64,000 nucleotides of DNA from Apostichopus japonicus. Its lineage: Eukaryota; Echinodermata; Holothuroidea; Aspidochirotida; Stichopodidae. This document shows, piece by piece, positions 6,975 to 56,100 of the stretch. Under the pieces are notes generated by a model. The model ran no database searches, was not told where the DNA came from, and saw only the letters and a list, made by a program, of their open reading frames with translations. A program made the position numbers and the translations under genes. Each line of letters opens with the position of its first letter. Position 1 is the first letter of the stretch. The DNA is taken from assembly GCF_037975245.1 (NCBI RefSeq), contig NC_092577.1, positions 32,862,898-32,926,897 of the forward strand. The letters run 5' to 3'.

Positions 6975-9900
6975 TTAATCCGTTTTACTTTTCTTACCGC
7001 AGCACGACTTGAAGAAACATCCGAAAACGAGCCTACCGACACGGTAAACTATATACAGAACTAACGACACACATAGCAGAAGAAATCCATAAACATCCCA
7101 CAAATTAAGTTGAATAAAGTTCAAATCATGTACAGGAGATCGTAGATGGTCAGCGCCATGTTTGAGAACATGCTCTATCCAAAATGCTGCCCTCTCGCGT
7201 GGAGTGTCCGGTCGATCACGGAATATTTCTGAGATGACTTTAACATTCTTCTGGTATCTAGCAAGGTAAACGAAATGTTTGTATCAAAATAGGTATTGTT
7301 GCACGTTATGTAGGTTATCAGATGTTTGCTTTTCCCAGAGGGGTAGGAGGGTGTGTGTGGATGACCGGGGTGGGGGAGGGGGGTGGAGATGAGTATAATA
7401 CGTTTTTTTTTGTCTTAGAAGCTTCACCCAATCAGAGCCAGCAACGGAAAGGGGCAAGACCTTTCGTTACTCCTATTGTGCCCTCCTATCTGGCAACGAC
7501 CCCATTCTCTTCCATCACGATATGGGTGGTTAAATGTTACGTAATACTAACAAATGAATTGATGCGCACGTGCACCGTGTACGAATGTTTGTCGGACATG
7601 TTACACCAACCATGAAATAAATCGTAGAATTCGATACTGCACCAGAAAGACATCAGCGGTTGTTATGAATTGCAAGAAACACAAACCATATCTTTTTTTC
7701 TTCTTCACACCAAATGGTACAAATGGTGATTGTATCAACTCTGTATCACCTTTGCAAAAAAGAAGGCAACCATTTTAACTTCCTAGCAAAGTTAACCTTC
7801 ATATGTACAATTTAACAACCTATATCCAACTCGCCCCCCCCCCCTTACCCCTTCATTTCCACCCCGTCATCTGACTTACTTTTCATCGGTCAGAATGGTC
7901 ATAATGGCCTCCACGACAGATTCACTAGTGATCTTGGTCACATCAAGCTTCAAACCGACCTCTCTTTCCACTACCCTCTGAGCAACGTCTGGTTGGTCAC
8001 CGAATAACGGCATCACTAGAAGGGGTACAGCATGGTAAATTGCTTCGTAAAGACCATTGTTTCCTCCCTGGTAGAAAAATAGTCTTGTTTTGTTGTGACC
8101 TACAGAGACATTGATGAAGAAATATCATTAACACAAAAAATATAAATCGTGAATTATGGGATAAAGCAGGTAATTCTTTTAGGCGTCTGGTTGTTCGATA
8201 TTAAACTAATTACTATGTGTTTATCGTTTATCGTCATATTTGGCATCTTCTATTTCATAAACTTAGTAACAATGCCTTTATGCAGCCGTATGCACTATTC
8301 ACAAGAAAAGTGACGTCACTGTCACAAGACGGCTGTTATAGATCAATTGATGTTCATCAATATCTCACTCTATATATGTAGCTTACCAACTAGGTAAGTT
8401 ACTCTCTTTATATGTGTAACTGACCAAGTAGGTAAGTTTCTCTCAATATATGTGTAACTTACCAAGTAGGTAAGTTACTCTCTTTGCATGTTTAACTTAC
8501 CTAATAGGTAAGTTACCCTCTATATATGTGTGACTTACCTAACAGGTCAGTTTTTCTCTATGTATGTGTAACTTACCAATAGGTAAGTTCATGGGCGGCG
8601 ATTATGGGGGGGGGGGGGACATGCCCCCCATATTTTAGGTGGGGATGTAGTATCTTATATCCCCCCCCCAATATTCGGTGGCATAGTTCTTTTTGTGTGG
8701 CTATAAATAGAAAATAATGCGTGAGATTATTTATCCAAATCATATTTGGCGGTGGCTAAAACTTCATCCAACACATGCTGCATGAGGTAAATGACTCTTC
8801 GTGGTCGTTTCTGTGACCTGTGACCGTATAGCATGTTGTCACTCATGATTATTATCATGTCTGTACATCTCTTGTGTATGAGTGTAAGTACGTACAATCA
8901 TATATATGATCCACATCGAAATGGGTTCACTGGGTTTCCATTTGGCCTGTTTCCTACAAGATTTCTAACCGCAGGCGCGTAGCCAAGGGGGGGGGGGGTG
9001 GACGAAGGGGGAAGACCGCCCCCCTCGAGCATATTTTTTGTATTTTTTTATGATATCGAAGTTTGATAGTAGCCGTTATAAGAGGTTTTAATATTTGTAC
9101 ACCTGTGAATTTTCGAAAATTCCCTGACCAACATTCTTCATCATACTTCCCCTCTACTCGTGCAATTTTGACCGGTCTGTTAGGGGTTGAAGGGGGTTTT
9201 GCTATATTGGTTGTCCATAGAAGAAATTTTGTGCAACATTATGGGTATGTTTTTAAGTGAATTTATTATGCAAATTCTGAACAAATAATGGGCTTAAAAC
9301 TGGATGGGCTGGAAAATATCACGAAGCGCGCAAAAAATTTTTGGGATGAAAGTTGCTACGCGTCTGCACCCAAGCAAATGTCCCCTCCCCCCCCCCCAAT
9401 ATTTGAAACAAATCGCCGCCCCTGGGTAAGTTACTCTCAATATATACGTAACTTACCTAATAGGTAAGTTACACATATATAGAGAATAACTTACCAAATA
9501 GGTAAGTTTCTCTCTCTATATATGTAACTTACCTAATAGGTAAGGTACACTCTATATAAGTGTAACTTACCTAATATTTAATTGACTCTCTACATATGTG
9601 TAAATTACCTAATAGATCGTTCTGAGGTAACCAAGACATCGTTTTCACACTTTCTGGCATATCTGTAGCTTCTGCTTTATTCTTCCACTGCCAGATAACC
9701 TTTTGAGGCAGCTTTGAAAACGCATCTTGGAAAAGTTTCACTAAGTCGTCGGGAAGATGACTAACATAACTTCCCAGGGCGAAAATGATGACACCGTGGT
9801 CCCCGGATGATTGCATGAATTCTTCAAGATCCTGATATGACGAAAGATGTATACATTGACGTCAGTATATAACATTGTACAAACAGCAATGATGAGAGAG

Positions 9901-12067
9901 TAAAAAAAAATTAATCCTATATCTGTTGTCCGTCTTACAGACTGACTTGAGGCCAAAACAAAAGTGAAAACATAAAAAAAAAATTTAAAAAAAAATAAAA
10001 ATAAATAATGGTTGTTTTCCTACCCCACTTTTAATTTGTATTGAGAAATGACCTTTGAAGTATTTGAGGCCCATCAATGACTCAACACTCACATGTAACA
10101 CAAATATCAATAGGAAAACATAAAAAATGTTATGGCCCAAATAACATATTTACGGTACATTAAAATTTGGTGAAGGATAAATGTTGTTGGACGTCGACAT
10201 CAAATGGAGATTTTTTTGTCCATATACTTTGGTTGAGTTATTAAACTTGACCAAAACTATGGATTAACAATCACATTTTAGCATACACGACGGAGGAGGC
10301 GACGTCATCATCAAATTAGCTTTTAAAGGAGCATTCCGGAGATATAGCATATTGTATAAAGCTGCATACCACAAAACCGGAACAGATATAGTAACGTTAC
10401 CAGCTCTCAAAGTATTTATTGTATTTCTTGGACTATAATGTATACCAAGACTGAAATTCTGACTAAGGTCATCCAGCTTGAACCTTTCTTGCTGGGTCTA
10501 CATGCTAAGTCTTACAATACGAAGAAGGTGTGTGGTGGATTGGGGCGTGAAAGAGTAATACAGTAGGCTTAAAGGCATTGAAGACTCGCCCCAAACCACG
10601 TGCCGCGCTCTGAAAAAGATAAATTTCCGTTGCTTGCAAGTGAAGTTCTCTTCTTGTTGCTACAAAATGCAGACAGTAATGAAACGTGATACCTTGTTAT
10701 CTTGTATCTAGACCTGAGATATCCATCGCTGCTATGAGCACTGTGTTGTGGGTATTGACCGTAGCTGTATGTATTGATTGTACATTAGTGTCTAATTACC
10801 GACGGTAGCAAGCTGTGTGTGTATTTCCTTGGATCGATGGTGGTGTATAACACTTCTGTTACACCTCATTCGAAACTAGGTAAGATTACCGGCATGAGAC
10901 GTTTCTTTTTGCGCGAGTCTTAACACCCTTTAACCGGTTATTTTCAGCGCGTTTCCTATAGGGAGAGAGGATGTTCAAATATTGGGTGTGTCAGATACAT
11001 TGATTTGTGCAATAACTATGGAGATGTTCAATTACTAGTTGCAGCTCGTTACTTGGTTAGGGAAGTATGCTGTGCTACGAATAACAAAACAAAACAGTAA
11101 CCTATTATGCGGCTCTTGCGCAGTGGCCATCCTTGTCTGATTAAAACCTTATTATAAACACAAGTAATTGTTTCTATATAACATACAGGCCTATGTCTTT
11201 AACATACATACATACATCAGAAAGAGGATTTGAAGGATTTGTGGTAACCCCTCCAACCAATGCAACGTTGGGCATGACCGGTATCCGCTGATCAATAATC
11301 GGATCGGATGATGCCAGGACAAAAGATGTTGTTTCGAGACTTTCTTTCCAACTTTTATTGATGTTGAATCTTTCACGAATATTGTCAAGTTCACTCCTCT
11401 GTGTTAAGAATATTTCATGGATAATGATCAAAGCTACATTTTGAACTTTGTTGATGAAGCTCATTTTCACTGGTAAACCAAACCCACTCTCAGCCACTAT
11501 GGCTGGATTTAGTGGGTTGCCATGGAAGCGAAGAAAGCCAGCCACCAAAGCAGGTGGAATGAAGGACACTTTTGTGATGTTCAAGTACTCTGCTAACAAT
11601 GCCGTACATGGCCAAGCTGGGTCATACACGATCATATCAAAATCATGTCTGTTGAATCGTGATATCACATCCGGTTGGAAGAGCGACTCACAATCGGCAG
11701 ACAATTCCTTCAAAATATCAGCAAGACACTGTATGCTCCCCTGTAAAGACCCTCCTTTCAGGACATTTATTGCAAGCGGTTCAAACCGCTTTTCTACTTC
11801 TTCCTTGCTTTTACCTGTTGGTATAACTTCGAAGTCAAATAGCTTTGAGTGTAATGGATGCGTGCTTCGAGATATGAATGTGTCACTTATGACAAATGTA
11901 ACGGAGATGTCTCTTTCCACCAGAGCTTCCCCGATAGCTGATGCCGCGGTGTAATGGCTTCCCTCTCCCATTCCATTAAAGAATAACACCTTATAAGAAT
12001 AACTCACTCTGAAACAACAAGCTAGAACGAGACAACAAAGGACAGGAACCGAGCTAGATTTTTCCAT
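6975..12067 (-). CDS. UDP-glucuronosyltransferase, four coding exons, complete
   Basis: Transfers a sugar from a UDP-sugar to small lipophilic acceptors in the ER lumen (UGT/GT1 family; detoxification and hormone conjugation). Exons on the minus strand: 12067-11216 (ATG in GCAAAATGG context), 9831-9609, 8099-7880 and 7257-6975. All introns have GT...AG ends, and phases 0, 1 and 2 close to 526 codons including the stop, a 525-residue protein of normal family length. Residues 1-24 look like a signal peptide. H38 in EGSHYT and D149 in VYDPAWPC match the catalytic His-Asp pair. The donor-binding signature runs from WLPQNDLLGHNKTR to FGDQPD (D393, Q394); its usual HGG is QGG (Q369). RDRPDTPRERAAFWIEHV precedes a C-terminal membrane helix and a tail ending KSKTD, a KxKxx ER-retrieval pattern. 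Intron 2 is full of minisatellite and a hAT-like insertion; intron 1 holds a MITE. Acceptor substrate unknown. No second UGT copy is in the window. Confidence 0.95.
8367..8589. repeat. 38-bp intronic minisatellite, block 1
   Basis: About six copies of a 38-base unit, such as ACTCTCTTTGCATGTTTAAC followed by TTACCTAATAGGTAAGTT. Each unit holds a near-perfect palindrome made of AACTTACCTA and TAGGTAAGTT, so consensus 5' splice sites (AG/GTAAGT) occur on both strands. It lies in UGT intron 2 and is interrupted on its right by the element at 8590-9424. Confidence 0.9.
8590..9424. mobile_element. hAT-like non-autonomous element in the UGT intron
   Basis: An 835-base insertion that splits the 38-bp minisatellite. 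The left end is CATGGGCGGCGATTA; the right end is ATCGCCGCCCCTG, giving imperfect terminal inverted repeats of CAGGGGCGGCGAT. Both sides show GGTAAGTT (8582-8589 and 9425-9432), consistent with the 8-bp target duplication of hAT transposons. However, GGTAAGTT is also part of every repeat unit, so the duplication is not independent proof. Long poly-G/poly-C tracts lie just inside both ends. No transposase frame. Confidence 0.7.
8972..9366. mobile_element. Possible nested element with CAGGCGCGTAGC ends
   Basis: Inside the larger insertion, CAGGCGCGTAGCCA at 8972 and TTGCTACGCGTCTG ending at 9366 form an imperfect inverted repeat about 395 bases apart, with a poly-G tract next to the left end. 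No clear target duplication is visible, so it may be nested or simply an internal part of the same element family. Confidence 0.45.
9425..9615. repeat. 38-bp intronic minisatellite, block 2, reaching the exon 2 donor
   Basis: Five more 38-base units that continue block 1. The last unit (AATTACCTAATAG, ending at 9615) is the actual exon 2/intron 2 boundary of the UGT gene: on the minus strand it reads CTATTAG/GTAATTTACAC, against CTATTAG/GTAAGTTAC in other units. The final seven coding bases of exon 2 therefore belong to the repeat. Confidence 0.9.
10569..10933 (-). mobile_element. TTAA-bounded MITE, copy 2, in UGT intron 1
   Basis: A 365-base element with TTAA at both outer ends. The left end reads TTAAAGGCATTGAAGACTCG and the right end, reverse complemented, TTAAAGGGTGTTAAGACTCG: an inverted repeat with four mismatches. 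It is an inverted copy of 3583-3949. TTAA targets are typical of piggyBac and Kolobok superfamilies; which one applies cannot be settled without a transposase-bearing relative. Non-coding. Confidence 0.8.
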
Positions 12068-12069
12068 TT

Positions 12070-13270
12070 TGCAAAAGTCTATAATAAGCTCTTTTCATTC
12101 ACAAGATGGAAATATAAGAACGTGTCCAGCTGAGGGCCTATATCATGGAGTAGTCAGCACACGTACTGTCCCAATTTGATTACCAACCAAACATTACGGA
12201 GGTTTCAACAGACGGAATTAGAAACTTCACGACTATGCAAGTGGCAGAAAAAGACCGTCAATGGAATCATTTGGTAGCTAACGTGGAAACGAAATTTCTT
12301 TCCATCGTTGTAGACGACGCATAACTAACACAACTAATAGTCACTCAATACTATGCTGGTAGGACAATTTGTATTCCTACTAGTTCTGAGGCAAAGACTA
12401 GTTTTTGTTCTGCTATAAGAACTGATTTAAACTTTGTGTCTATCGTGTAGATCGATAGGTGTTAGAAGCACAATATTAGGTGCATTAGTACGAACAAGGT
12501 CAAGTTACTTTCATATGACATACTGCGTGCAGATATTGTATAGTCCTTTGGTTAAGTTGACCCCAACAACTTGGTCACAGAAACAAAACGAACGACTATT
12601 TACCCTTCATAGCGTTCCAGAAGCTACACAACCATGGCACTCTGCATGGAACAACACTCGTAACGGATTCTGTTTGGAGAACACCAGTATACAGTACAAG
12701 ACTATACTGTACCTGTACAGAATACAGACGTACGTACGTACGCGTCTAGTATACTGATGTTGTTATTTACTGACTGCGGTATCGATTCCTCATTGCAGAA
12801 TCCAGTAGAACAGTATTTACGGCTCCTATGCAACCTCACTGTGCTGTATGAAATATCACAACAATTTAGTAAACAGCTGAAACGTTATTGCATGCCTGTA
12901 ACCTATATACCAATGTATCGGGACACAACAACGTCCGGAGACCTTTTGCTGTTATGTGCTGAACGCTATGCCGGACTGCACACTAAACGACTTTACTAAC
13001 ATGCGTGCTGTGTTTGTATCAATTTAGCGAACTTTAGATTCTCTTACTAATATGTGTATGACCATGGAGGTTTTACCTCCATGATATGACGGTAAACATA
13101 TGAAGTGTTTGCTTTAGCATCTGTTTGATGTATAGGCAATTATGCTTATGAATACAATCATGACAGTGTGCTTTTATTTCGCGTATGTTGTCTTCAAAGA
13201 CACCATGCAATCATAATCAAAGACCCAGGGAGGGAGAATTGTAGGGGCACGAGATATAACCCGTTTGATC
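12070..13270. other. Upstream flank of the UGT gene, no exon seen
   Basis: This holds the presumed UGT promoter side. No clear TATA box was assigned. A (GTAC)n-like stretch lies near 12728-12742, and a 9-base-arm hairpin (CATGGAGGT, loop TTT, ACCTCCATG) at 13063-13083. Open frames at 12434-12999 have no recognisable character. Confidence 0.5.
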
Positions 13271-43124: not shown

Positions 43125-44175
43125 CTCGATATCGTAACCATAGCAATGAAAATATACTTGTAATAAAATAGAGTGATATACTTGTAATAAATATATATAG
43201 TAATATACTTGTAATAAATATATAGTTATATACTTGTAATGAATATACATAAATATACTTGTAATACATATGTAGTAATCTACTTGCAATAAATATATCG
43301 TAATCTACTTGTAATAAATATATAGTAATCTACTTGTAAAAAACTATATAATAATCAACTTGTAATACATAAATATTTTTCTTGCAATAAATATACAGTA
43401 ATCTACTTGTAATGAATATATAGTATTGTATAGTATTGTAATGCGCCTTGAGCGCCTTGTTTACTTAAGGTGGATTTGTGCGCTGTATAAATCCACATTA
43501 TTATTATTAGTAGTAGTATTTTACTTGTTATAAATAAATATTCTACTTGCTATAAATAAACAGTAATATACTAGTAATAAATATATAGTATTCTACTTGC
43601 AATATATATATATAGTAATGTATTTGTCATAAATATATAGTAATATACATGTAATAAACATATAGTAATATACATGTAATAAACATATAGTAATATACAT
43701 GTAATAAACATATAGTAATATACTTGTAATAAATATATATTCAATTTGCAATATATATACAGCAATCTACTTGCAATATATATATAGTAATGTATTTGTC
43801 ATCAATATACGTGTTATAAACATATGTTAATCTACTTGTAATAAATGTATAGTAATCTACTTGTAATAAATATAGTAATATACTTGTAACAAATATATAG
43901 GAATATACTTGTAACAAATTTATAGTAAGGTACTTGTAACAAATATATAGAAACATACTTGTAAAGAATATATATAAAAATTAGTTATAATAAACATACA
44001 GTAATATACTAGTAACAAATATACAGTAATCTACTTGTAATAAATATACAGTAATATCCTAGAAATAATATATATTAATATACTTGTAACAAATATATAG
44101 TAATACATTTTTATTAAACATATAGTAATATACTTTTAATAAACATATATATATACTTGTAATATATATATAGCA
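43125..44175. repeat. ~25-bp minisatellite, TACTTGTAATAAATATATAG unit
   Basis: More than 30 copies of a unit of 24-27 bases, usually TACTTGTAATAAATATATAG followed by TAATA or TAATC. It spans about 1 kb and is interrupted at 43430-43515 by a SINE/LINE-like tail. The long minus-strand frames with LLQVYYYI repeats are by-products of the array. Confidence 0.95.
43430..43515 (+). mobile_element. SINE/LINE-type 3' tail inside the minisatellite
   Basis: ATGCGCCTTGAGCGCCTTG, then GTGGATTT-GTGCGCTGTAT-AAATCCAC (an 8-bp stem) and an ATTATTATTATT tail. Tails with a GCGCTATATAAAT-like motif and (ATT)n are widespread in invertebrate genomes as ends of truncated retroelements. It has split the minisatellite. 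Confidence 0.6.
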
Positions 44176-44179
44176 AAAA

Positions 44180-51069: not shown

Positions 51070-53160
51070 TTATAACGCCGTGAAATGTGTGGTGGTGAAA
51101 TTGGAGGTGTCCGTGCGGGAGTAGCGTTTGGAGTGCATGCTACTACCATCACTGAGCTGTAATGATCTTACTTCACGGCACAAGACCGTCCTTTTGTACG
51201 CCTTCCGGAATCTCGCCGACATGATGTTGTAGAGGACTGGGTTGGCGCATGATGAAAGGTAAAGAAGTGTCATCGAGATGGAATACAGCCACTCGTGATA
51301 GGTCGATTCGTTGATACCTCCACTTACGATCAAAGGTCGTAACCGTATCCACATGAAAGGAAACCAAAGGACGAAAAAGCAAACCGCCACCAAAGCTACG
51401 AGAGACAGAGAGAGAGAGGGGTAAAAAAGAAGCAATATTGAAACATTTTTTTAATCGGCGACAATGACGTTATGTATAGAAAGTGCATGACACTTAACTA
51501 AACGATGTCCATATTGTATCGTCTAGTTAGATTTATTTAACAACAAGACGTACTTTAATTTTACGTTTTACATACTTCCTCTGAAGGTTGTGAAGTTTCG
51601 TATCATAGAAAATGAAATTTTGGTTGAAACGACAAACAGTAGTCAAAATAGTCAATGACCGTAAGGTTGCAACGCCTGAGTTAAGTTATTAATGTCTGTC
51701 ACAAAATGATTTGATATTCTTCATCGCAGATACCTATGTTAAATGCTACAGAAGCTTGACCGGTATGTCACTTACGAATTTTTTCATTCACATCAGAACA
51801 TCACTTTCGCACAAAATAAAATAGTTTATTAAATGCCTACGTCGAAGAAAAGAAATACAATTAATGATAATTTTACTAATCTATGAAACAAAATATCAAC
51901 ATGTTAATGGAAAGGGAATTCTAACATGCCATATGAATGTCGGATCTTAGAGAATCATCCCGAATTTCGACGAAATTGCAACATTTTCCAACTTTAATTC
52001 TTCAAATGGGAGAAGATGAATAAGATTCCATGATTTATACAATTGCTGTAGTTTTGAACTTAAAATAACTTAAACAAGTACAGAGCTTTCTCAGCTACAG
52101 AACAGGATAATACAGATTATTCATCATTTGGTGATACAGTTAACATGGCTTTAAATAAAATATACAACCACAACAACTTACCAAGAAGTTTCACGGCATG
52201 GTGTCTGGCTTTGTCCACAGCGTCGCTGGTGGAATGTTTCTTCTTTGCTGTTTTTTTCGGAATTTTCATCATTGATGTCCTCCTCCCTGATGTGATGTTC
52301 TTTGCGTAAAGTGTTCTTGCGATCAATGAATATAAGACTATGATCAACGTCATTGGAACGAGGAACAGAAATATAGAACTAATACCATAAAATATGGCTA
52401 GGAATCTATCCAATTCATACTGTGGCAAACATACAGTCGATTCTGGAATACCAAAGCAAAACTCTTGCGTAGAGAATACTGCAAAGACAGGCGTGGCTAA
52501 GATGAAGGAACAAATCCATATGAGAACGATGATTTTTGACGCACGCGATTGTGATAAAATGGTTCGCGCCCTCATCGGATGGCAAATGACGATATACCTT
52601 TCTATGGTGAACGCTACGATATGCAGCACCGTTGTGTAGAGACACGCTTCCTTGACGTAAGGATGTAAACGGCAAAAGAATTGTGGAAAGCTCCAAGGCC
52701 AAAAGTGCAACTGGAATTTGATCTCCACTGGCGCGGTCGTCAGGAGCATCAGAAGATCCGAAAGGGCGAGGCTGAGAAGGTAGTGGGATGTCGCTTGAAG
52801 GACTTTATTACGCAGAATCACGATAATAGTTAAAATGTTAGCAATTGATCCAAATATGCATAAAATCGCAAGGATCATGGAGAAGAAGAGACCATTCCTC
52901 TGTCCGGGAGCACCCATGGTTGGTTCCAGATATACCATTCGAGTGTCGTGGTCCATATCGTATAAGAAATACGGACACGTCGAACAATATTGGATGCAGT
53001 ATTCGATAATACGACCTGGATACGCGCTAGAACACGGAATGTCCTGACTTTCTGAATGGCAAACAGCTACCAGCGGTTCATTTATGTCGTCACAAACCTG
53101 CCCCATAGCATCGGTATAGTTGAGTTCTAGTAAAGTGAGGTTACAAGCCCACTCCGCCAT
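51070..53160 (-). CDS. Rhodopsin-family peptide GPCR (ghrelin/neuromedin U/TRH receptor-like)
   Basis: A seven-transmembrane plasma-membrane receptor for a neuropeptide-type ligand. Coding exons 53160-52182 and 51395-51070 join at a phase 1 GT-AG intron (CTTG/GTAAGTT; CTCGTAG/CTTTGG) inside the start of TM6, giving 434 residues. The ATG at 53158-53160 lies in GCCATGG. An acceptor-like TTTGCAG just upstream (near 53192) suggests a separate 5' UTR exon. TM1 ~91-114 (N108), TM2 ~127-148 (LALSD, D135), TM3 ~163-187 (C163; ERY 187-189), TM4 with W215, ECL2 C235/C244, TM5 with P269, TM6 327-348 and TM7 ending N378-P-V-L-Y382. ACLYTTVLHIVAFTIERY and NPVLYNIMSARFRKAY place it in the ghrelin/neuromedin U/TRH group. 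Oddities: the TM6 CWxP motif reads LWFP, and the extracellular N-terminus has seven cysteines before residue 63 plus sequons at N7 and N14. No signal peptide. C399 could be palmitoylated. Ligand unknown. Confidence 0.93.
51396..52181 (-). other. GPCR intron
   Basis: A 786-base intron with a strong polypyrimidine tract (CTCTCTCTCTGTCTCTCGTAG) at its 3' end. No other feature was seen. Confidence 0.85.
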
Positions 53161-53199
53161 GGCTATGGGACAATTCTGGAAAATTATGGCAACCTGCAA

Positions 53200-56100
53200 A
53201 TATCAGAAAGAGCGAAAAAGAATTGAGTCAGTAAACAAAAACGACAATATCGTTTTATCTTGACCACTCTCCGGATTGACCGCATTTTGCGACCAAATTT
53301 GGTTTGGGTCTCAGAACATTCTTTTGCGGCCCAAATCTTAAGGTTAACCAAGCTTTTCATTTCAGTAAGCTTATCTCTGAAAAACGTGGAAACATTCACT
53401 CATTTTGATAGTTTTCATTGTAGTGAACATCTCTTTTCATTATCTCGTGTTGCATTGAAAACATAGCATTCGTTGCCAACGAACAAAATGTTCCATTCGA
53501 CCGCTTTCCTCACGCTTGCTTGTCTGTATAATTGTGCATGCGCATTACACAAGTAAGGATACACAGTAGAATCTCTGACGTCATGGCCTCTTTTAATCTC
53601 ACATTAACCATTGATACATCTGACCAATAACATCATCCCGATTTATCTTATGAACGTAAACGCAATCGATATAACTTTCAGCTATCCGATCCGAGTTTGC
53701 TCAGTTTTCCCAACTTTTTTGTTGTATAAAAAGAGTAAACTTTAAATTCTATACTTCAAAATTAAAAAATAAATAATATACTTAAATATATTATGACTAG
53801 TTTAAACCGAGTACATTGTGAGACATTCTTTCATCTGGTAGCTCATCATTGAAATATAAGAAAGGCATGATTATCATCTAAATTGAAAATACAATCGAAC
53901 TTGATAATGTGCTTGACATTTTGAAAAAAAAACCCAATGTCCTAACAAGAGTATAAATTTGTGGCGCTCTGTCACCCCTTTTGCGATGGAAGAATGTTTT
54001 GAAACTTATCCACACATTTTGACACATTTTTGGAGGTCCCTGTTTTCTCCCAAATGTGTCGTTAACTTCGCATACAACGCAATAGGCAATACTTTTTCAT
54101 GCTAACTTCTAATATCGATCTCAACTTCACACAGTAACAGTAAACGATTCATTGAAGGTTTGGAAAATTTCTGTTTTTTCTCCATTATGTTAACGGTATA
54201 CATAATAGTTCAAAAGATATTCATATCCAATTGCCTACGTCATAGTAAAGAAAAAAAAACTAGTCACCCATCGCACTGACGCGCAACAGGATTTCGTTTA
54301 ATGGAGAGAAATATATTCTATTTCCTTGCCATTCACTGCTCTTGAAATCAGCATTTGTTTGTAACATTTCCAGGTGTCATAAGGCGATAATGTTACATTT
54401 ATTGGGATTCTAATATCTACCTTTACGAAAAGCAGTTGGAAGAGAAAAAGTCTTAAATATTTTGTAAGATGGTGAGTCTTCCATTTGTTTAAGTAGACAG
54501 AGATTGCTGCAGGATAACCATGTAATTCATGCGGAGGGATTCAAACAAATATGCAAAGAATCTGTCATTTCGCCATATCGGAATAATCGAACTACAGTCT
54601 GTAGATAACATATTAATGTAATGATGAAGTACAAAATCTTTTGTCATGAAGTAATTGTATTCAAGACTTTCAGCAAGATTTATGAGACACTTTAACCTTC
54701 TTTTTTCTCTCTCTCTTTTTCTTTTCCTGCGTTTGGTCGCCAATTTGACCGAAACTACCAAGGGTTGCTCTAAGTTACCTTGTAAATAAACTTAGATGCC
54801 TTCCAAAATTTCATCACCATATGAAGGTTAATGAGAACATGATTTATGAATCGATTCCCCTTTTACTATACGCCGCTCAGTATCTTGTTTGTTTTTTTTT
54901 CTCTTGTAACAGTTGAGTACCAACTTGGCATTGGAAACTTTGCAACTGCTTTACTGTGATGACGTTTAAGACGCAAGCAGTATCAACACCTTTAACTAAA
55001 TCAATTCAACATTAGCTGTTTGCAGGCCAGAATATGTTCGTAACCTGTTCTGCGTCCTGATTAAACAGGTCTATTTACGACTCAGTTTCGAAACTTGTTT
55101 GTTTCTATTTTAGAGATGAAAGAGCAGTAACGAGGATTTCAGTTACCTTAAGAATTCCAAATTTGCCCTAGTTACCGTTTTACGGGAACTTGCAGCTTAA
55201 GGCCGTAATGGAAGAACTGACAATTTGTAATCTGGTATGAACATTCAATGTGCCTAAGCGTGTCAACTGACAGTTCTAGGAGCAAAATGACACATTTCTT
55301 TAGAGGCAGTACGTATCCGATTAATAGCGAACTATTTAGTGCACACGCGCGCGTCACTTGGATTTAGCGTTCGAATTTAAGAAACCCTGCTTTAAAGGTC
55401 AACGACTCTACTCCTTTGTTGCAACAAGAATTGACACAGAATGTCGGAATATGTCTACGCCAAGACATTTGGCCCTCTTTAATGTATGGCTACATGAAAG
55501 AACTACAAAAGCAAAGTTTATCCTGTGTTATTAAATGTTAACAGTTACTTTCGAAAGTTTATCTGATATACTTTCTCCTCTCCCCCTCCTAACTAAAATG
55601 GACCGACACCAAGGGAGGCATGAAATATTTGCAATTTGAGGCGGCCGCATGTAGATGCAATGTGAAATTATATTTCAACTTTACACGTTTCAACATGTAT
55701 AATTATTATCTTTTCTTTGCCATAACGCCATATATCCATTTTCGACACGGGAGTAGGTGCATCCTTACGTGTTAGGGCATACTAATTGGGTATTAAATTC
55801 CACTGCGTCACTGCAACACAATTTCGTGCACGCCCCTGCTACAGAATGATTCGAAACACGAAACACGCTGACGCGTGCGCGCAAGGGACGCACTCAGTAG
55901 CACAACCCAAATAATAGCACACAGATGCAACTATAATAACACCCGACGACCAAACCCCTTCCAAGATCAATTGACTATCTGTCGTTTTCGAACCAACACA
56001 TTTTTTCCTCTTCAAATAGAAGATGAAAACATCTACCTAAATAATTCTGACTTAAACTTACTTCAATGACAAACGTATTGAGTTATTTATGAGACCATTA

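Follow-up and report, generated by a model that had tools for sequence, protein, structure and literature searches.

A 38-bp repeat array that includes the exon 2 splice donor of a UDP-glycosyltransferase gene, and the predicted folding of its decoy donors

Results

UDP-glycosyltransferase gene

The window, that is, the whole 64-kb stretch of Apostichopus japonicus DNA that was analysed, carries on its minus strand a gene for a detoxification enzyme, UDP-glycosyltransferase; judged by reading frame and homology, the gene is complete. Its four joined exons amount to 525 codons without an internal stop:

6975..12067, minus strand: UDP-glycosyltransferase gene, 4 coding exons, 525 aa (reading frame and Pfam)
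12067-11216, minus strand: exon 1 (Pfam UDPGT, 9.3e-21)
9831-9609, minus strand: exon 2, 223 nt, 3' end ...GATCTATTAG, the final 7 nt belonging to the repeat unit (Pfam UDPGT, 2.7e-18)
8099-7880, minus strand: exon 3, 220 nt, acceptor TCTCTGTAG/GTCAC, donor GAAAA/GTAAGT (Pfam UDPGT, 7.1e-18)
7257-6975, minus strand: exon 4 (Pfam UDPGT, 5.2e-20)

Joining exon 2 to exon 3 restores the peptide WLPQNDLLGH. Its last eight residues, PQNDLLGH, recur unchanged in the human UGT2B7, 2B10, 2B15 and 2B17 chains (five alignments shown); the preceding residue in the human UGT2B chains is Leu or Ile. The matching exon of vertebrate UGT genes is also 220 nt long, as is exon 3 here. Intron 2 spans 1509 nt, with its first base at 9608. 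The exon 1 donor, GAT/GTATGT, lies within a short GTATGTATGTATGT run (11203-11215) containing several possible donors, and 2 of the 4 donors tried keep the frame. An Rfam search at gathering thresholds gave no match in 7600-12200.

Elsewhere in the window, Tandem Repeats Finder reported a 1-kb AT-rich array at 43149-44176, with 25/50-bp units and longer periods too. Two minus-strand reading frames within 51070-53202 resemble a rhodopsin-type G-protein-coupled receptor and are perhaps exons of one gene (Pfam 7tm_1: 52117-53202 at 2.1e-41; 51070-51450 at 1.1e-6, which falls slightly short of the curated cut-off).

Array and splice junction

Tandem Repeats Finder also identified 38-bp arrays at 8364-8589 and 9425-9615, the second of which reaches 7 nt into exon 2. 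Once the insert lying between them is removed, they form a single array of 11 units in gene sense:

9578..9615, minus strand: unit 0, the junction unit, with the authentic donor TAG/GTAATT at 9608; 33/38 to the consensus of the other ten
9425..9577, minus strand: units 1-4, with decoy donors at 9570, 9532, 9494 and 9456 (Tandem Repeats Finder and unit alignment)
8590..9424, no strand assigned: hAT-like, putatively non-autonomous insert, 835 bp, with the 8-bp target duplication GGTAAGTT (terminal inverted repeats and duplication)
8364..8589, minus strand: units 5-10, with decoy donors at 8576, 8538, 8500, 8462, 8424 (GTCAGT) and 8386 (GTAAGC) (Tandem Repeats Finder and unit alignment)
9571..9573, minus strand: first in-frame stop past the authentic donor, a TAG that is the TAG of decoy 1 (reading frame)

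The first-pass annotation had treated 8367-9615 as one array; the 38-bp arrays are indeed there, but 835 of these 1249 bp are the inserted element at 8590-9424.

The authentic exon 2 donor, CTATTAG/GTAATTTAC (cut 9609/9608), is itself the terminal unit of the array, as had been proposed. Against the consensus of the ten units with the junction unit left out, CTATTAGGTAAGTTACACATATATAGAGAGTAACTTAC, the junction unit agrees at all 7 exonic and at 26 of 31 intronic positions, and the 31 exonic nucleotides ahead of it agree at 8/31, approximately the chance level. The best ungapped 38-mer match outside the array, across 126,804 positions on both strands of the 64-kb window, was 23/38, with no unit copy exceeding this value; in the same register, the exon 1 and exon 3 donors match the unit at 16/38 and 12/38, respectively. 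Because the junction unit matches at 33/38 and nothing elsewhere exceeds 23/38, the unit is the splice junction itself, with the homology ending 7 nt inside the exon. The array with its junction unit is a real, non-random feature.

Since the last 7 exonic and the first 31 intronic nucleotides form the unit and the homology stops there, growth of the array from the splice junction, also suggested by the annotation, is well supported by the alignment, and its direction we infer. The exonic heptamer CTATTAG encodes the Leu-Leu-Gly of the conserved PQNDLLGH and, because it codes for a conserved motif, most likely predates the array, which favours growth outward from the junction. Given two leucines, the chance of the codon pair CTA TTA is ~0.024-0.028, based on the 56 leucine codons of the gene.

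Each unit holds the donor together with an inverted copy of it (GTAACTTACC...GGTAAGTTAC), and a search for the palindrome pattern with ≤3 mismatches returned 8 matches, compared with 0.03 expected. The claim that every unit is palindromic was too broad: with the insert removed, 3 of the 10 inter-unit palindromes pair at 10/10 positions and 4 at 9/10, but the others pair at 8, 6 and 6, one of those with 6 being the palindrome that adjoins the exon. In unit 3 (9501-9464), the 15-nt linker is inverted (14/15 identical as inverted vs 3/15 as direct), which exchange between the inverted arms would explain. Donor motifs are present on the plus strand as well, in agreement with the annotation; plus-strand gene content at the array was judged only from the list of open reading frames. 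No exact match to a 21-mer of the palindrome was found in viral contigs. A candidate array copy in a bacterial contig was rejected, the single exact 21-mer match being a lone hairpin without a tandem array and judged to have arisen by chance.

Transposon-like insert

The terminal inverted repeats of the insert at 8590-9424 are 14 nt long and 13/14 alike (13/20 over the first 20). The element ends in CATGGGCGGCGATT and, inverted, CAGGGGCGGCGATT, with GGTAAGTT on either side. This target duplication consists of the donor motif itself, and excision of the insert along with one copy of the duplication renders the array continuous again. The insert combines an 8-bp target duplication with short terminal inverted repeats, which we take to be the criteria of the hAT family, and resembles a non-autonomous hAT element that was inserted once the array was complete. 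No further copy of its end motif was found within the 64-kb window with ≤2 mismatches. The insert also contains a further pair of inverted ends, CAGGCGCGTAGCC and CAGACGCGTAGCA, which mark out a possible nested element of 395 bp at 8972-9366; no target duplication was seen in the flanks inspected.

Strength and coding consequence of the decoy donors

The motif GTAAGT is found in 8 of the 10 intronic units (five as TAG/GTAAGT and three as TTG/GTAAGT), the remaining two carrying GTCAGT (8424) and GTAAGC (8386). All ten have G at position +5, compared with T at the authentic site. Donors were scored with human values for both the donor frequencies and the U1 end. With human frequencies, which may not be those of the host, the authentic donor scores 6.0 bits and the decoys 5.1 to 10.6 bits; with the human U1 end, which may likewise differ from that of the host, the pairing energy is -6.5 kcal/mol at the authentic donor and -5.0 to -10.5 kcal/mol at the decoys. 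By either measure, 9 of the 10 decoys surpass the authentic donor, the exception being 8424, and the claim that most units carry an intact donor, often better than the true one, is borne out. A left-arm site at 8516 (AGG/GTAACT) also scores above the authentic donor (6.5 bits), with weaker U1 pairing (-5.9).

Every product spliced at a decoy would carry the stop at 9573-9571, 11 residues past the Gly of Leu-Leu-Gly and upstream of two further exons. Transcripts that stop ahead of two more exons are expected to undergo mRNA decay. The end of exon 2 may slide into the intron, as the annotation had suggested, but not in a way that yields protein variants: the common in-frame stop leaves the decoys unable to give a longer working enzyme, and we rejected them as a source of longer protein forms.

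Recursive splicing (ratchet) sites have a pyrimidine-rich tract and an AG directly before GTAAGT and can serve as acceptors. The 17 nucleotides before the five TAG/GTAAGT sites contain 10, 10, 8, 6 and 6 pyrimidines, compared with 12 at the real acceptor; the case for recursive splicing through TAG/GTAAGT appears weak, the preceding tracts being poorer than that of the real acceptor.

Predicted folding of the array

The 226-nt segment comprising the end of exon 2 and units 0-4 has a folding energy of -89.5 kcal/mol (z = -10.2). The prediction places units 1 to 4 together in a single long stem and gives the authentic donor a short hairpin of its own, formed with the exonic GGTTACCT. The latter motif is located in exon 2 at 9625-9632, 16 nt before the exon end; in the predicted fold it can pair with the AGGTAATT that lies at the authentic donor.

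When the RNA from exon 2 through exon 3 is folded, 5.1 kcal/mol is needed to open the authentic donor, compared with 8.4-13.6 kcal/mol for nine decoys (all but 8424). After U1 pairing is included, the net value is -1.4 for the authentic donor, -2.1 for decoy 8538 and above 0 for the other eight. In the 407-nt piece that runs up to the insert, the authentic donor costs 5.8 kcal/mol to open vs 11.4-13.8 for the decoys and, among the five sites, ranks first in net value (-0.7, the decoys ranging from 1.2 to 3.3). The authentic donor is thus the cheapest to open in both long-range folds, and most decoys are predicted to be masked by long-range folding.

As a control, the other letters were shuffled singly 100 times with exon 2 and the five 9-nt donors held fixed. 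The authentic site had the best net value in none of the 100 shuffles and was the cheapest to open in 6; the native opening costs were matched in 1, 0, 0 and 0 of 100 shuffles for the four decoys and in 17 of 100 for the authentic donor. The computed masking thus stems from the arrangement of the array and acts on the decoys.

The prediction depends on the range over which the RNA is allowed to fold. In RNAplfold-type windows of 80, 150 and 240 nt, 4, 4 and 2 of the 9 decoys were more open than the authentic donor, decoy 1 in all three, and in folds of the nascent RNA ending at +12, +30 and +60, 7, 5 and 2 of the 9 decoys were cheaper to open. A local hairpin is absent at decoy 1, as it is at the authentic site. 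Local hairpins were therefore ruled out as the full explanation, decoy 1 lacking one and the authentic donor not being the most open site in the 80-240-nt windows or the nascent folds. The computed masking is thus tied to the long-range fold at equilibrium and, as the short-window and nascent folds do not show it, may fail when donors are chosen as the RNA is made. None of the 10 palindromes displays a compensatory change, and selection on the stems is accordingly unsupported.

Discussion

Origin of the array and alternative explanations

The explanation that we consider reasonably probable is that a 38-bp stretch across the boundary of exon 2 and intron 2 spread into the intron by tandem duplication, giving about eleven copies, one of which later received the hAT-like element. 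The extra donors would be by-products of the duplication and not alternative exon ends with a use for the protein. Owing to the inverted donor copy in each unit, the decoys would fold into long pre-mRNA stems. The authentic donor, with the exon on its left in place of an inverted arm and only the short exonic GGTTACCT to pair with, would be easier to open and could win despite its weaker consensus. The gene probably tolerates the decoys because the unit includes the inverted copy of its own donor.

A different outcome in the cell follows if the array, equally grown from the junction, is neutral debris that makes splicing leaky, some transcripts ending at decoys, carrying the stop and being destroyed; the array would then lower the output of the enzyme, and its length may modulate that output. 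We regard this as rather unlikely, with several of the above observations pointing its way: 9 of the 10 decoys outscore the authentic donor, all decoy products share one stop, and decoy 1, only 38 nt away and free of a local hairpin, is the more open site in three window sizes. Furthermore, in the nascent folds at +12 and +30, decoys 1 and 2 both take less energy to open than the authentic donor does; at +60 this holds for decoy 2 but no longer for decoy 1. However, folding at equilibrium gives the authentic site the advantage over decoys 1-4, and the gene is intact over 525 codons, from which we infer that useful transcripts are presumably made. A further alternative concerns the origin of the repeat, which could be an independent minisatellite, formed elsewhere in the intron or imported, whose last unit came to hold the exon end through deletion or conversion. 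Arrays of unrelated units do occur in the window, and the inverted linker of unit 3 suggests rearrangement by the inverted arms. Nevertheless, such an array would have had to supply the conserved Leu-Leu-Gly codons, and the exact register at the donor, the 7/7 exonic match with homology ending 7 nt inside the exon and the lack of any other unit copy above 23/38 in the 64-kb window all argue against this origin, which appears improbable. Finally, by analogy with engineered systems, the decoys might act as landing pads on which extra U1 just downstream helps in the definition of exon 2; G at +5, present in 10/10 intronic units, is missing from this exon's own donor. Exon skipping can be corrected by modified U1 that binds the intron downstream of the donor (PMC4822034), and engineered U1 downstream of defective donors offers a parallel. 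Natural U1 at a strong GTAAGT, unlike in the engineered case, could also splice there, the decoys are predicted to be paired at equilibrium, and the donor arms are only marginally better kept than the linkers (Fisher p = 0.08, or 0.04 when the edge unit is counted), so that this role seems highly improbable.

Relation to known repeats

The closest precedent for the array is the minisatellite of the human interferon-induced gene IFI6 (6-16, G1P3), on which Turri, Cuin and Porter published in 1995. Splicing of that gene employs two repeat units further downstream as donors, and three mRNA species result (PMC4526556). Both arrays consist of minisatellite units that carry donor sites; the array here has the donor consensus in tandem units and includes the real exon end in register. 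In IFI6, however, the donors of the repeat are in use and different isoforms are reported, whereas the decoys of the present array are candidate donors. The IFI6 unit is 12 bp long and placed at the exon end; the unit here is 38 bp long and palindromic, and alternative working proteins are not predicted, every decoy product stopping at 9573-9571. Because of this shared stop, we do not class the array as an IFI6-type source of isoforms; only the principle is the same.

In human segmental duplications, minisatellite expansion with a mean unit of 30 bp is described, and some of the repeats lie at exon-intron boundaries and change splicing (PMC2812944). The likeness is the expansion at such a boundary; as described there, those repeats give novel introns and are kept in the exon or spliced out, whereas the present array is intronic in all but 7 nt and adds donors only. 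An earthworm metallothionein gene shares with it a minisatellite in intron 1 with mirrored parts, an inversion and unexplained spacers (PMC12783039), but those monomers are on average ~180 bp long and mirrored by blocks, not unit by unit, and no relation to a splice donor is stated in the passages on the repeat. A palindromic donor array was not among the matches listed from the openly licensed literature, which is weak evidence of absence. Thus, the donor-bearing minisatellite is known from IFI6 and the palindromic, self-masking form looks new on the computed folds; the array differs from its known relatives in being palindromic, in the stop common to all decoy products and in the masking computed for it.

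Implications

We tentatively propose, as a possibility suggested by the folding computations, a self-masking minisatellite in which each duplication adds both a decoy and the strand that hides it, so that only the copy bordering the exon stays open and a weak authentic donor depends on the fold. If this proposal is true, such an array can grow without destroying its gene, and the choice of splice site would be set by the RNA structure of the whole array, shifting with copy number. If confirmed, the locus would show how a gene survives while strong copies of its own splice signal multiply, and it would be a natural test of RNA folding vs donor strength in setting where an intron starts, with ten near-identical decoy donors of differing pairing in one intron as a ready-made comparison.
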